Positions 17,391 through 23,125 of a DNA stretch of 64,000 nucleotides are shown piece after piece. The stretch spans positions 124,001 to 188,000 of the forward strand of contig JAFRQR010000002.1 in NCBI GenBank assembly GCA_017428545.1, written 5' to 3'. The notes beneath the pieces were generated by a model, which saw only the letters and a program-made list of their open reading frames with translations, did no database searches and was not told the DNA's origin. Both the position numbers and the translations under genes were made by a program. The stretch is from Clostridiales bacterium. Lineage in GTDB: Bacteria > Bacillota > Clostridia > Saccharofermentanales > Saccharofermentanaceae. Every line of letters begins with the position of its first letter. The stretch's first letter is position 1.

Positions 17391-20090
17391 CTATTCGTCT
17401 CCTTTTGCTTTTTCAATAAGTGAATAAAGTATATTCATCGCCTCCAGTGGCGTAATTCTGGAAATGTCCAAATTGACCAGTTCGGTTCTCAGAGAATGAG
17501 AATCGGCCGGCTCTGTCCGGTTCGGAGAAAACAGCGGGATCTGACCTGAGATCGGACCTTCAAACGTCTCCCCTTCCCCATCGGTATAGCTGATCTGCAT
17601 CTTTTTCTTATCAAGTTCGGAAAGGATCACATTCGCTCTTTCCACGACCTCGGTCGGAACGCCTGCAAGACGGGCTACTTCGATACCGTAGCTGTCTGAG
17701 GTACCGCCGGTTGAGATCTTATGGAGGAAGGATACTTCCTTATTCTTCTCTTCTACTTCAACATGGGCATTGTATACACCCGTCAAAGTGTTCTCGAGCT
17801 GGTTCAGTTCGTGATAATGTGTCGCGAAGATCGTTCTTGCAAACATGATCGAACGGTTCGCAATGAATTCTATAATGGCCCAGGCGATCGCTAAACCGTC
17901 ATAGGTGCTCGTACCGCGTCCTACTTCATCCAAAAGCAGAAGGCTCTTATAGGTACCGTTTCGAAGGATTCCGGACACTTCGTTCATTTCGACCATAAAT
18001 GTTGATTGGCCAAGAGAGATATCGTCTGAAGCACCGATCCTTGTAAAGATTCGGTCAACGATACCGATATGTGCAAACGAAGCGGGAACAAAAGATCCGA
18101 TCTGGGCAAGAAGCACGATCAGAGCAGTCTGTCGCATATAAGTCGATTTACCGGCCATGTTCGGGCCTGTCAGGATCATGATGCGGTGAGACTCTTCATC
18201 CATGGAGATTCCGTTCGGAACAAATTCGCCTTCTTTAAGCATCTTCTCAACAACAGGATGGCGTCCGTTTTCGATCACAAGTGCGGTCGTATCGTCGACT
18301 TTCGGACGGCAGTAGTTGTTTCTTTCCGCCAGTTCGCCAAGCGACATGATGACATCAAGGACAGCAAGTGCAGATGCGACACGATACAGACGATGGACCT
18401 CGGAAGCGATCTTTTCACGAAGTTCACAGAACAGATCATACTCCAGAGAAACGAGTTTAGCCGTAGATCCGACGATCGTATCCTCGATGCTCTTAAGTTC
18501 TTCCGTGATATAACGCTCACCTGTGGTCAGTGTCTGCTTTCTGATATAGCGGTCCGGAACCAGCGGAACGTTTCCTTTGGAAACTTCGATATAGTAGCCG
18601 AAGACCTTGTTATAGCTGATCCTGAGGTTCTTGATCCCGGTCTCTTCTTTTTCCTTGGCTTCCATCTCCAAAATGATGGATTTACCGTCTTTGCTTGCAC
18701 GGCGGAGTCTGTCGGCTTCTTCGTTATAACCGTCTTTGAACATCCCGCCCTCTTTCACGGAGATCGGGGGATCTTCGCAAAGTGCCGCATCAAGAAGCGC
18801 ATGGATATCCGACAGATCTTCAAGGTCGGAAACGGTGTCTTTTAGAACACCCGCCGAAAAGTGTCCGGCGCATTCCTGGATATATGGAAGCTTTGAAAGC
18901 GTATTCCTTAGATTTAGAAGGTCTCTGGCATTGACGGAAGAAAGCGCTATACGAGATGCCAGTCTTTCCATGTCATGTACACCAAGCAATGCTTCACGAA
19001 GCTCCTGGCGGTGAATAAAGTCGTTTTTCGCCTGCTCAACGGCATCAAGTCGTGCCGTGATCGAAGAAACATCGATCAGGGGTTCTTCGATATACTCACG
19101 AAGTCTTCTTCCGCCCATGGAAGTCTGTGTCATGTCGATTGCCCAAAGAAGGCTGCCCTTCTTCTGCTTCGAGCGGATGGTAGAGGTGATCTCGAGATTG
19201 GTTCTTGTTGCCACATCGAGTTCCATCGTATCGGATACTTCATAGATGCGGGCGGTTGAGAAATGCGTGACCTGCGCCTGCTGTGTCTCATCAAGATAAG
19301 AAAGGATCGCATCGATCGCGGAAGTTAAAAGGATGTTTTTGGTTTCTTCGGCAAAAGAACTCTTTCCCTTTTTCTTTCCCGTGTTTTCTTTCTTATAGTT
19401 ATCCGGAAGCACACGTTCGGAAAGACCAGCCGAAAAATCCGCGTTTGGACGTAATGTCACGGAAGATACGAGATTATCGCAAACGTAATTGAAAAGCTCA
19501 TCCTTACTGAAATCTTCGTTAAAGATCAGCTCGGAAGCCCTGTATTTCGAAAGAAGATTTACCAGGTGCTGTGCTGTGTTTCCGGTGATCAGCTGAGTTG
19601 CCTCCATCGTTCCGGTGGTGATATCAGCTGCTGCCAGTCCATATTGCATGCCGACCTTATAGACACACACGAGGAAGTTATTCTTCTTCTCATCCAGGCC
19701 ATTGGTGTCAATGACGGTACCCGGTGTTAAAACACGCGTGATCGAACGCTTGACAAGTCCTTTTGCCAAGGCCGGATCTTCCATCTGCTCACATATGGCA
19801 ACTTTATAGCCTTGGGTGATCAGGCGCTGCATATAAGATGATGCCGAGTGGTGCGGAACTCCGCACATCGGAGCCCGCTTTTCAAGACCGCAGTCTCTAG
19901 ATGTCAAAGTCAGCTCCAAAAGCCTGGATACAAGGATCGCGTCATCGAAGAACATCTCGTAGAAGTCTCCGAGACGGAACATCAGTATTGCATCGCCGGC
20001 AAGTTTTTTCATCTCGAAGTACTGGCGCATCATCGGCGATAGCGTCGATACATCAACAGCTGCATATGTTAAAAGATCGTCGTTATTCAT
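17391..20090 (-). CDS. mutS: DNA mismatch repair protein MutS
   Basis: An 899-residue mismatch sensor. Near the N-terminus FRLGDFYEMFFDDA holds the mismatch-contacting Phe-x-Glu. The ATPase has Walker A GPNMAGKSTYMRQ, Walker B LLLDEVGRGTSTYDG and the FATHYHEL region. Length is normal for MutS1. GAGG precedes the ATG and the gene overlaps miaB by 8 nt. A C-terminal extension includes KKMQISYTDGEGE, of no known role. Confidence 0.97.
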   Translation of the reverse strand: MNNDDLLTYAAVDVSTLSPMMRQYFEMKKLAGDAILMFRLGDFYEMFFDDAILVSRLLELTLTSRDCGLEKRAPMCGVPHHSASSYMQRLITQGYKVAICEQMEDPALAKGLVKRSITRVLTPGTVIDTNGLDEKKNNFLVCVYKVGMQYGLAAADITTGTMEATQLITGNTAQHLVNLLSKYRASELIFNEDFSKDELFNYVCDNLVSSVTLRPNADFSAGLSERVLPDNYKKENTGKKKGKSSFAEETKNILLTSAIDAILSYLDETQQAQVTHFSTARIYEVSDTMELDVATRTNLEITSTIRSKQKKGSLLWAIDMTQTSMGGRRLREYIEEPLIDVSSITARLDAVEQAKNDFIHRQELREALLGVHDMERLASRIALSSVNARDLLNLRNTLSKLPYIQECAGHFSAGVLKDTVSDLEDLSDIHALLDAALCEDPPISVKEGGMFKDGYNEEADRLRRASKDGKSIILEMEAKEKEETGIKNLRISYNKVFGYYIEVSKGNVPLVPDRYIRKQTLTTGERYITEELKSIEDTIVGSTAKLVSLEYDLFCELREKIASEVHRLYRVASALAVLDVIMSLGELAERNNYCRPKVDDTTALVIENGRHPVVEKMLKEGEFVPNGISMDEESHRIMILTGPNMAGKSTYMRQTALIVLLAQIGSFVPASFAHIGIVDRIFTRIGASDDISLGQSTFMVEMNEVSGILRNGTYKSLLLLDEVGRGTSTYDGLAIAWAIIEFIANRSIMFARTIFATHYHELNQLENTLTGVYNAHVEVEEKNKEVSFLHKISTGGTSDSYGIEVARLAGVPTEVVERANVILSELDKKKMQISYTDGEGETFEGPISGQIPLFSPNRTEPADSHSLRTELVNLDISRITPLEAMNILYSLIEKAKGDE

Positions 20091-21576
20091 CGATAAACCT
20101 CACCAATTCTCCTTCTACTGAGTATGGCTTGGCACGGGTGATAGAAACCATGGCAAGCATGCCCTCGAACTGATCTGCATTAAAATCCGGGGCCGAACTG
20201 TCGATTTCTTTCCCGTTTAACTTAATGCCTGCAGGGATCCGGAAATTGACAAGCCGGTTGGAATTCGTTCTTCCCGTAAGTACATCCGGAGCCGTAGCAC
20301 TCTTTCCTTCAATGAGGATCTCTTCGGTGTTTCCTACGCAAGACTCATTGGAGGCAAATGTCAGGGCATTCTGCAGTTCCAGAAGTCTTCCGAAACGCTC
20401 GGTAACGACATCCTGCGGGATCTGATCCGGATAATCGGCGGCCTTGGTGCCCGGACGGCGACTGTACTGGAAAGTAAATGCGCTGTCGAACCTGCACTTT
20501 TCGACGACATCAAGCGTGGCTTGGAAGTCCTCTTCTGTCTCACCCGGGAATCCGACGATGATGTCCGTTGTCAAAGTCGCGTCGGGAAGTTCTTTTCGAA
20601 ATAAAAGCGCGGTCTTGAGATACTGTTCCTGATCATAGTGACGGTTCATACGTTTAAGAACAGCACTGGATCCGGATTGCATCGGAAGATGCAGGTGTCT
20701 TTCGATATTCGGATATTTTTTCATGGTATAGATAACTTCTTCGGAAATGTCTTTCGGATGCGAAGTCATAAAACGGATGCGCGAAAATCCGGGGATCTTT
20801 GCAGCCTCTTCAAGAAGCTTGGCAAAGGAGATCTCGTCTTCTTTGTCGTTACCATAGGAATTAACATTCTGTCCTAAAAGCATGACTTCTTTATAACCGG
20901 CAGACGCCAGTTCCCGTAATTGGGAAAGGATCTGTACAGAAGATCTGGAGCGCTCACGGCCACGTGTATAAGGTACGACACAGTATGTACAGAAATTATT
21001 ACATCCGTACATGATCGGGACCAGAGCGCGGAACTTTCTTTTATGAAGGACCGGAACATCTACGTCGTCGACGAGATAATCCTCGTCGGATACGGCAAAT
21101 ACACGCTTTCTCTGATTCAGCTTCTTATCGAGGATCGCCGGGAGCATATGGATATCGGCGGGCCCGAAACAGGCGTCTACGTAAGGGAAACTCTTCTTAA
21201 TGCGGTCGATGTTTTCCTGCTGTTTCATCATGCAGCCGCAAACCGCGATAAACATGTCACGGTTCTGCTTCTTTTGCGCTTTATAAGCACCGAGGTTGCC
21301 GAAAAGACGGATGTCGGCATTTTCCCTGATCGTACATGTGTTAAAGATAAGAAAGTCCGGAGACTGATCTTCCGAAGCCTCGATGAGACCGATGCTCTGA
21401 AGGATGCCCTCGATCTTTTCGCTGTCGGATTCATTTAGCTGGCATCCGTAAGTCTTCACACGGTAAGTTAACGGCTGACCACGGTCGATACCCGCTTCGG
21501 TAAGGCGCTTTTTCAGCGACGGAATAAGAGAGTTATAGCGCGATAACTCATCTTGCGATACAATAACAGTTGACAC
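20083..21576 (-). CDS. miaB: tRNA-2-methylthio-N6-dimethylallyladenosine synthase MiaB
   Basis: A 497-residue radical SAM methylthiotransferase. It has the N-terminal UPF0004 domain with KTYGCQLNESDSEKI and two further cysteines (FNTCTIRE, VCGCMMKQ), the radical SAM motif CNNFCTYC followed by VVPYTRGRERSR, and a C-terminal TRAM domain. The start is GTG, with GAGG 8 nt upstream. It is first in miaB-mutS-mutL-miaA-hfq, divergent from the carboxypeptidase homologue. Confidence 0.95.
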   Translation of the reverse strand: MSTVIVSQDELSRYNSLIPSLKKRLTEAGIDRGQPLTYRVKTYGCQLNESDSEKIEGILQSIGLIEASEDQSPDFLIFNTCTIRENADIRLFGNLGAYKAQKKQNRDMFIAVCGCMMKQQENIDRIKKSFPYVDACFGPADIHMLPAILDKKLNQRKRVFAVSDEDYLVDDVDVPVLHKRKFRALVPIMYGCNNFCTYCVVPYTRGRERSRSSVQILSQLRELASAGYKEVMLLGQNVNSYGNDKEDEISFAKLLEEAAKIPGFSRIRFMTSHPKDISEEVIYTMKKYPNIERHLHLPMQSGSSAVLKRMNRHYDQEQYLKTALLFRKELPDATLTTDIIVGFPGETEEDFQATLDVVEKCRFDSAFTFQYSRRPGTKAADYPDQIPQDVVTERFGRLLELQNALTFASNESCVGNTEEILIEGKSATAPDVLTGRTNSNRLVNFRIPAGIKLNGKEIDSSAPDFNADQFEGMLAMVSITRAKPYSVEGELVRFIDE

Positions 21577-21700
21577 GTAAATGACCTCGATTTCTATTTC
21601 GATTTATTTTCGTTGTTTTTGACTCTTTAATGATACATGAACAACGCCGATTTGTGAACGAGATCGAGCAACATTTTTAATGATTCGGGGATATGGTTTT

Positions 21701-23125
21701 ATGCGCAAAAAGCACTTAATACGGTCAATATGCTCTTTCTTTTTGTCATTTACCATTCTCTTTTTGATTTTCCCTGTTTCTTCTCTTCGTTCTGACGATG
21801 AAACACAGATTTCTTCAGAGAATCAATCCACGGAACTTCAAAATCCGGTCGAAGGTCTTCTTGATCCGTGTCCTTCCGGCCTTCCGATACCCGGAGCGGA
21901 TTCCTATCTGGTTTATGATGCTCTTTCCGATACGATGCTGATCGGTTATCAGTATGATTCTCCAAAAGCGCCTGCAGCCATTACACAGATCATGACGGTC
22001 CTGCTTTCTATGGAGAGCCTGGAATTATCCGATACGATCACGATCACAAAAGAAATGTATGAATCGATTCCGGAGGATTATGTCAGGATCGGCTTTTCTG
22101 AGGGTGAGGTCGTGACCGTGGAACAGTGCATCTACGCCAGCCTTTTAAAATCCGCAAATGATGCATGTCTGGCTTTGGCGATAAAGACGAGCGGCAGTGA
22201 AAGTGCTTTTGTCGAAGCCATGAATCGGCGTGCCGCGGAATTGGGCTGCACAAACACGCATTTTACGAATCCCTATGGGCTTTCGGACGGCGAACATAAG
22301 ACGACATGTCAGGATATGTCTTTGATCTTAAAAGAAGCCCTTCGTCATCCTGATTTTACGAAGATCAGTACAAGCACATCGTATACTATAGAACCGACGA
22401 ACACGTTTAATGACAGACGTGTCCTGAATAATGCGAACCGCTTTATTTCCACGCCTTCTACGGCCTATGAGTACTACATCGGAGGAAAGACCGGTTATAC
22501 TTCAGAATCCGGTTATACGATCATAGCCGGCGCGGAAAAAGACGGCCGCGAACTGATCGGGATCCTTCTCGGAGCCAATGACGCAGAAAGCCGGTATCTG
22601 GCACTCAGCGAGCTTTTTGAGTACTGTTTTGCGAATTATACGACGACCATGATCGAGGAAAATGAAATGAGCGGAATTGTCAAAAATACGACATCTCAGA
22701 TCGAAAATTCGATCCTCGGCACGACACTTAAGATCGATAGTACTTCCCTTCAGCTCCTTGAGTACTATACCGTCCAAACTTCTATCGCAAACGGTGGTTA
22801 CAGTAATGATATCGATCTGTCCGAAGTTGTGATCGATCCGCTTGCCAAAAGACAGGAATTAAAACTCCCCATCAACCGTACCTTTAGCAACAATTCGTCT
22901 TATAAGATCGGATATCTGACGGTTACAATCGTTGACGAGACAAGGCTGAATGAAGAGATCGAGACGATTGCTTCTTCTGAAAAGAAAGATAGGGCCGGCA
23001 TTCTTCTGACAATAGCCATCGTCACCGGACTTGTTATTGTTTCAGGCCTCGCGGTCCTTCTGTTTGTTAAAATGGTCAAAAAGAGACGGTTTAACAAGAA
23101 CCACAGAAATCCGAGGATTCTTTAA
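21701..23125 (+). CDS. D-Ala-D-Ala carboxypeptidase homologue (S11 family) lacking catalytic Ser and Lys
   Basis: A 474-residue protein with a signal peptide (about residues 1-30), an S11/DacF-like domain and a C-terminal membrane anchor (about residues 433-455) followed by basic KKRRF. Motif 1, normally SxxK within PASITKIMT, reads APAAITQIMT here: the nucleophile position is Ala (codon GCC, 21977-21979) and the lysine is Gln (CAG, 21986-21988). Motif 2 (SAN, residues 151-153) and motif 3 (KTG, 263-265) are intact at the normal spacing. It is therefore predicted to bind but not cleave peptidoglycan stem peptides. ATG 21701 has GGGGA upstream and directly precedes the signal peptide; an upstream ATG at 21680 is possible. 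Confidence 0.9.
   Translation: MRKKHLIRSICSFFLSFTILFLIFPVSSLRSDDETQISSENQSTELQNPVEGLLDPCPSGLPIPGADSYLVYDALSDTMLIGYQYDSPKAPAAITQIMTVLLSMESLELSDTITITKEMYESIPEDYVRIGFSEGEVVTVEQCIYASLLKSANDACLALAIKTSGSESAFVEAMNRRAAELGCTNTHFTNPYGLSDGEHKTTCQDMSLILKEALRHPDFTKISTSTSYTIEPTNTFNDRRVLNNANRFISTPSTAYEYYIGGKTGYTSESGYTIIAGAEKDGRELIGILLGANDAESRYLALSELFEYCFANYTTTMIEENEMSGIVKNTTSQIENSILGTTLKIDSTSLQLLEYYTVQTSIANGGYSNDIDLSEVVIDPLAKRQELKLPINRTFSNNSSYKIGYLTVTIVDETRLNEEIETIASSEKKDRAGILLTIAIVTGLVIVSGLAVLLFVKMVKKRRFNKNHRNPRIL

Follow-up and report, generated by a model that had tools for sequence, protein, structure and literature searches.

A conserved S11 carboxypeptidase homolog that has repeatedly lost catalytic residues is probably kept as a membrane-tethered scaffold or regulator

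In the 64,000-nucleotide stretch of DNA analyzed here (the window), we identified a gene of the D-Ala-D-Ala carboxypeptidase family S11 whose product lacks both catalytic residues of motif 1, yet which is conserved and under selection across its genus. Within the wider bacterial family, catalytic residues of this ortholog have been lost on at least three separate occasions, and an intact paralog accompanies the gene in its own genome. Judged from its sequence, the protein should be catalytically inactive. Catalysis lost repeatedly while the gene, its place, its fold, its anchor, and its constraint were kept would be best explained by a non-catalytic function older than the losses. We thus favor the reading that the protein is a membrane-tethered pseudoenzyme, descended from an active D,D-carboxypeptidase and probably retained as a non-catalytic scaffold or regulator, a role that its active ancestors would already have had. 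The genomes underlying this analysis are largely metagenome assembled, and those relatives that bear names belong to the Clostridia, most having been sampled from the rumen or another forestomach.

The gene sits in a forward-strand open reading frame (21680–23125) that stays open over 481 codons (481 amino acids). Met8 of this frame, at position 21701, is the likelier start, because near orthologs keep a methionine and a basic N terminus there (MRKKH-like context) and a GGGGA lies upstream; we therefore prefer this start, also chosen in the first-pass annotation, over the opening of the frame at 21680. It yields a protein of 474 amino acids. Promoter and terminator scans gave no signal beyond chance. 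Membership of the S11 family by fold and descent is indicated by Peptidase_S11 (PF00768, residues 73–300, 3.7e-44), the sole Pfam domain, and by the top Foldseek matches, which are 3mfd, PBP6, and PBP5. An AlphaFold model (mean pLDDT 75.7, with residues 256–273, up to KTG, modeled poorly) comprises an N-terminal hydrophobic helix, the S11 domain, a beta-rich C-terminal region, a C-terminal membrane helix, and a basic tail (Table 1). The signal peptide and C-terminal anchor that had been described as kept are both recognizable as helices in this model, the latter being hydrophobic across orthologs. The export helix evolves fast (dN/dS mostly 0.2–0.36 within the genus), and in the beta-rich region L350, G373, Q392, P397, and G411 are common to active and dead orthologs. 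Conservation of the last 15 residues in the genus equals that of the S11 domain despite the variable neighboring helix: mean entropy is 0.63 bits for the tail versus 1.79 for the adjoining membrane helix, whereas in active relatives from a fifth genus of the family the two vary alike (1.32 versus 1.34).

Table 1. Positions in the window of the S11 pseudoenzyme gene, its parts, and the neighboring miaB
Feature	Coordinates	Strand	Evidence
S11 pseudoenzyme gene	21701..23125	+	ORF calls, Pfam; ortholog in 22/23 genus genomes
N-terminal signal peptide / export helix (approximate end)	21701..21790	+	hydrophobic helix in model m2a4e4b9d12d3
S11 D-Ala-D-Ala carboxypeptidase-like domain	21896..22579	+	PF00768; fold similar to B. 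subtilis DacB (3mfd) and E. coli PBP5/6
Degenerate motif 1, A-I-T-Q replacing S-x-x-K	21977..21988	+	alignment with solved S11 enzymes and orthologs
Motif 2, SAN, intact (residues 158-160)	22151..22159	+	
Motif 3, KTG, intact (residues 270-272)	22487..22495	+	
C-terminal beta-rich extracytoplasmic region, at the position of the PBP5 C-terminal domain	22580..22969	+	model secondary structure
C-terminal membrane helix	22991..23077	+	long helix 438-474 in model; hydrophobic across all orthologs
Basic C-terminal tail (..NKNHRNPRIL), predicted cytosolic	23078..23122	+	unusual conservation within genus
miaB, first gene of the divergent miaB-mutS-mutL block marking the orthologous locus	20083..21576	-	synteny in family loci examined

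Alignment places A-I-T-Q (A100 to Q103 in frame numbering, 93 and 96 counted from Met8) in the SxxK columns of B. subtilis DacB (3mfd), other solved S11 enzymes, and orthologs. This confirmed the observation that had drawn attention to the gene, namely that both motif-1 catalytic residues are lost while SAN and KTG are intact. Of the features expected of an active S11 enzyme, the SxxK nucleophile and general base are thus missing, and SxN (as SAN) and KTG are present. The serine-to-serine distance from the motif-1 site to SAN is 58, and SAN and KTG lie 112 apart. In a related enzyme of the penicillin-binding-protein family the SxxK lysine acts as the general base (PMC3347556), and for A. baumannii PBP5/6a and PBP6b, Ser-to-Ala mutants were used as catalytically inactive controls, PBP6b S122A having shown no activity (PMC13059705). 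With the acyl-acceptor serine and the general-base lysine both gone, the protein would be expected to form no acyl-enzyme with D-Ala-D-Ala or penicillin.

Of the 23 genus genomes, 22 carry an ortholog, the exception being a 79% complete genome without any S11 match, and the gene is never lost from genus genomes that are at least 90% complete. No ortholog among the 22 has SxxK, a finding that would have spoken against a selected pseudoenzyme. Whether the A..Q pair is conserved across the clade, a question raised by the first-pass annotation, receives a divided answer: the lysine position is Gln in all 22, but the serine position is Ala in 17, Gly in two, and Ser in three, so that 19/22 lack the serine. 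The three members with Ser alongside Gln may retain weak residual reactivity. SAN is invariant and KTG is kept in 21/22, and motif 1 aside, most positions invariant in active orthologs are also kept. Because Gln is invariant across the 22 orthologs, A-I-T-Q is not a product of chance or error, and the 22 genomes rule out sequencing error, frameshift, or contamination as its source. When 391 genomes from the class were scanned for [A/G]-I-T-Q, the window's own genome gave the only match; given the narrow pattern and the few genus members in this even draw, the result says merely that the exact form is rare. Separately, one genus ortholog (L009, genome G008) carries a single in-frame TGA inside its match, reflecting either an error or an altered start.

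The codons GCC and CAG had been read correctly, and GCC is two steps from the AGY serine of the sister genera; the accompanying claim that neither residue lies a single slip away fails for CAG, which is only one substitution from the lysine codons (AAG/AAA) of intact orthologs. Serine codons in the genus are AGC or AGT, matching the sister genera, and the two glycine codons are GGC and GGA. These codons make Lys to Gln, followed by AGY to GGN to GCN, the simplest history, and the sequences accordingly suggest that Lys to Gln most likely occurred at the base of the genus, with Ser to Gly or Ala following.

Wherever a locus from the family was read together with its flanks, the gene and miaB are divergently oriented, and mutS and mutL follow miaB on contigs that extend far enough. 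Downstream, a pmbA-tldD pair is common to the closer genera bar one exception and absent in the fifth genus. The neighbors are housekeeping genes and give no hint of function. Two irregular loci were seen. Genome G061, assigned to the fifth genus, has a second S11 ortholog (L050/L117) identical to that of G017 and with the synteny of the window's genus; as this genome has 7% contamination, the extra ortholog is probably a binning error. In G103, the ortholog (L107) is split over two frames beside a normal miaB-mutS-mutL block, through a frameshift or an assembly error.

Pairwise dN/dS over the S11 domain is 0.02–0.07 within the genus for pairs whose dS is usable, 0.01–0.09 within another dead clade described below, and 0.01–0.05 between active pairs, all rough values since several pairs have high or saturated dS. 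This strong purifying selection, coupled with the absence of SxxK from genus orthologs, bears out the proposal that the gene encodes a selected pseudoenzyme and is not decaying, the inactivity itself being read from sequence.

We read 103 sequences of the bacterial family for motifs: the catalytic residues are complete in 60, a motif-1 residue is missing from 42, and one (L061) departs only in motif 2, as SxC, and was left out of the loss count. The 42 comprise 23 rows of the window genus type (one of them a duplicate from a contaminated bin assigned to another genus), 18 from a clade of the fifth genus, and one from a fourth genus. Most orthologs in the other genera keep SxxK, SxN, and KTG, as do relatives from a neighboring family, making an active ancestor the simplest reading; on sequence grounds, the family ancestor of this ortholog group was very probably active. 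On a tree from which the motif columns had been excluded, intact versus lost requires at least three changes, or four when the SxC species is counted; its root is uncertain because one outgroup row falls inside the family on a long branch. Constraining both large dead groups to cluster lowers the log-likelihood by 66 units (p-AU 0.00034), which rejects a single origin for them. The losses fall in the window's genus, in the 18-species clade of the fifth genus, where Ser was lost first and then often other motif residues, and in one fourth-genus species with Lys to Met and motif-2 Ser to Thr, which weighs less because it comes from one 78% complete genome. Motif-1 states in the fifth-genus clade are A..K, G..K, and T..I, and there the KTG lysine is replaced in 12/18 and the SxN asparagine in 8/18.

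The window's own genome encodes one other S11 gene, with intact SMTK, SGN, and KTG, and a VanY-type homolog. A second S11 gene is found in all 22 genus genomes; its motifs were read whole in eight and are intact in each of these. In genome G020 this gene (L029) is split over two frames in a stretch with masked bases, owing to an assembly gap or a frameshift. In the fifth genus, a third S11 gene occurs alongside 14/18 dead versus 5/55 intact orthologs, with a small Fisher p, although this association is not independent evidence because the dead clade is one event and intact sisters also carry the gene. The five copies of this third gene that were read (L108–L112) have SVTK and KTG, but their motif 2 is S-G-A (RSGAECC), lacking the usual Asn, so its activity is unsure. 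The window's own genome also has a partial match to the Spo0A C-terminal domain (5e-12, 73/104 positions).

These observations are consistent with a model in which the protein would act as an extracytoplasmic scaffold or allosteric regulator of cell-wall machinery, tethered by its C-terminal helix; the S11 fold would offer the surface for docking, and the conserved basic tail would likely make contacts in the cytosol or at the membrane. Carboxypeptidase activity would be supplied by the second S11 enzyme, with the VanY-type homolog also there, and catalysis would have become dispensable repeatedly. The pocket kept in the genus (SAN and KTG) might still hold a pentapeptide stem non-covalently. 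A scaffold or regulator is nevertheless better supported than a peptidoglycan-binding protein, since the KTG lysine, and in many cases the SxN asparagine, are gone as well from a lineage that lost catalysis independently.

That same lineage bears on an alternative in which the protein senses uncrosslinked pentapeptide or a beta-lactam, its SAN/KTG side binding the ligand non-covalently and the membrane helix passing a signal to the tail. Retention of both motifs in the genus fits ligand binding, and a tail conserved like the S11 domain beside a variable membrane helix would suit signaling; however, the replacements in the fifth genus indicate that the dead lineages do not share a function based on pocket chemistry, and no signaling gene is adjacent in the loci read with flanks. 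We consider a sensor unlikely.

It is more doubtful still that the protein remains an enzyme whose chemistry has changed, working through another nucleophile or performing a different peptidoglycan reaction. Strong constraint on the domain and an otherwise preserved pocket are what such an enzyme would require, but we recognized no catalytic-looking residue that is newly invariant and confined to the genus, and the former serine site varies between A, G, and S. We also weighed a new cysteine nucleophile and rejected it, as the conspicuous cysteines 150, 210, and 316 also occur in relatives with S..K (L045–L048). The gene might instead be a neutral relic, a redundant carboxypeptidase heading for loss, as the second S11 gene and the distribution of the third in the fifth genus would allow. 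This is contradicted by the low dN/dS and a frame open across a divergent genus, and by the invariant Gln and the persistence of the gene in the more complete genomes, and we regard it as highly improbable.

These findings bear on what low-molecular-weight penicillin-binding proteins may do besides acting as carboxypeptidases. That one ortholog has lost catalysis repeatedly while the rest of it stays under strong selection provides natural evidence for a non-catalytic role, and matched active and dead orthologs are now at hand for testing it. We judge the chances to be evenly balanced that the losses reveal an ancient non-catalytic function in an ordinary-looking S11 carboxypeptidase found throughout a bacterial family, which would then be the first recognized S11 pseudoenzyme to regulate cell-wall synthesis; our literature search, with most subscription journals outside it, found nothing relevant on S11 pseudoenzymes. 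In the present sample, labeling the protein a "D-Ala-D-Ala carboxypeptidase" would misannotate about 40% of the ortholog group.

Among known systems, the protein resembles S11 enzymes of the DacB/DacF/PBP5 type in fold, domain order, SxN, KTG, export signal, and C-terminal membrane anchor, and its best solved relative is B. subtilis DacB (3mfd). It differs from them in the replacement of the motif-1 Ser and Lys, in an anchor made up of a complete membrane helix plus a basic tail, and in its locus beside miaB-mutS-mutL. DacF of B. subtilis is a sporulation carboxypeptidase encoded in the spoIIA neighborhood; the gene described here lies elsewhere, between miaB-mutS-mutL and pmbA-tldD. Closer in presumed mode of action is Helicobacter pylori Csd2, a non-enzymatic homolog of the hydrolase Csd1 with a scaffold or stability role (PMC9507126, PMC10151779). 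Both are retained dead homologs of cell-wall hydrolases, and by analogy a scaffold role may apply here; Csd2, however, has an M23 metallopeptidase fold rather than S11 and belongs to a known complex with a partner to which it is paralogous. EnvC, ActS, and other degenerate LytM factors likewise have a hydrolase fold, are in some cases inactive, and regulate active cell-wall enzymes (PMC8416486, PMC8360153), although theirs is an unrelated metallopeptidase fold and they are amidase activators. As S11 is the only domain found in our protein, with no M23/LytM domain, its likeness to Csd2 and the LytM factors would lie in mode of action alone.
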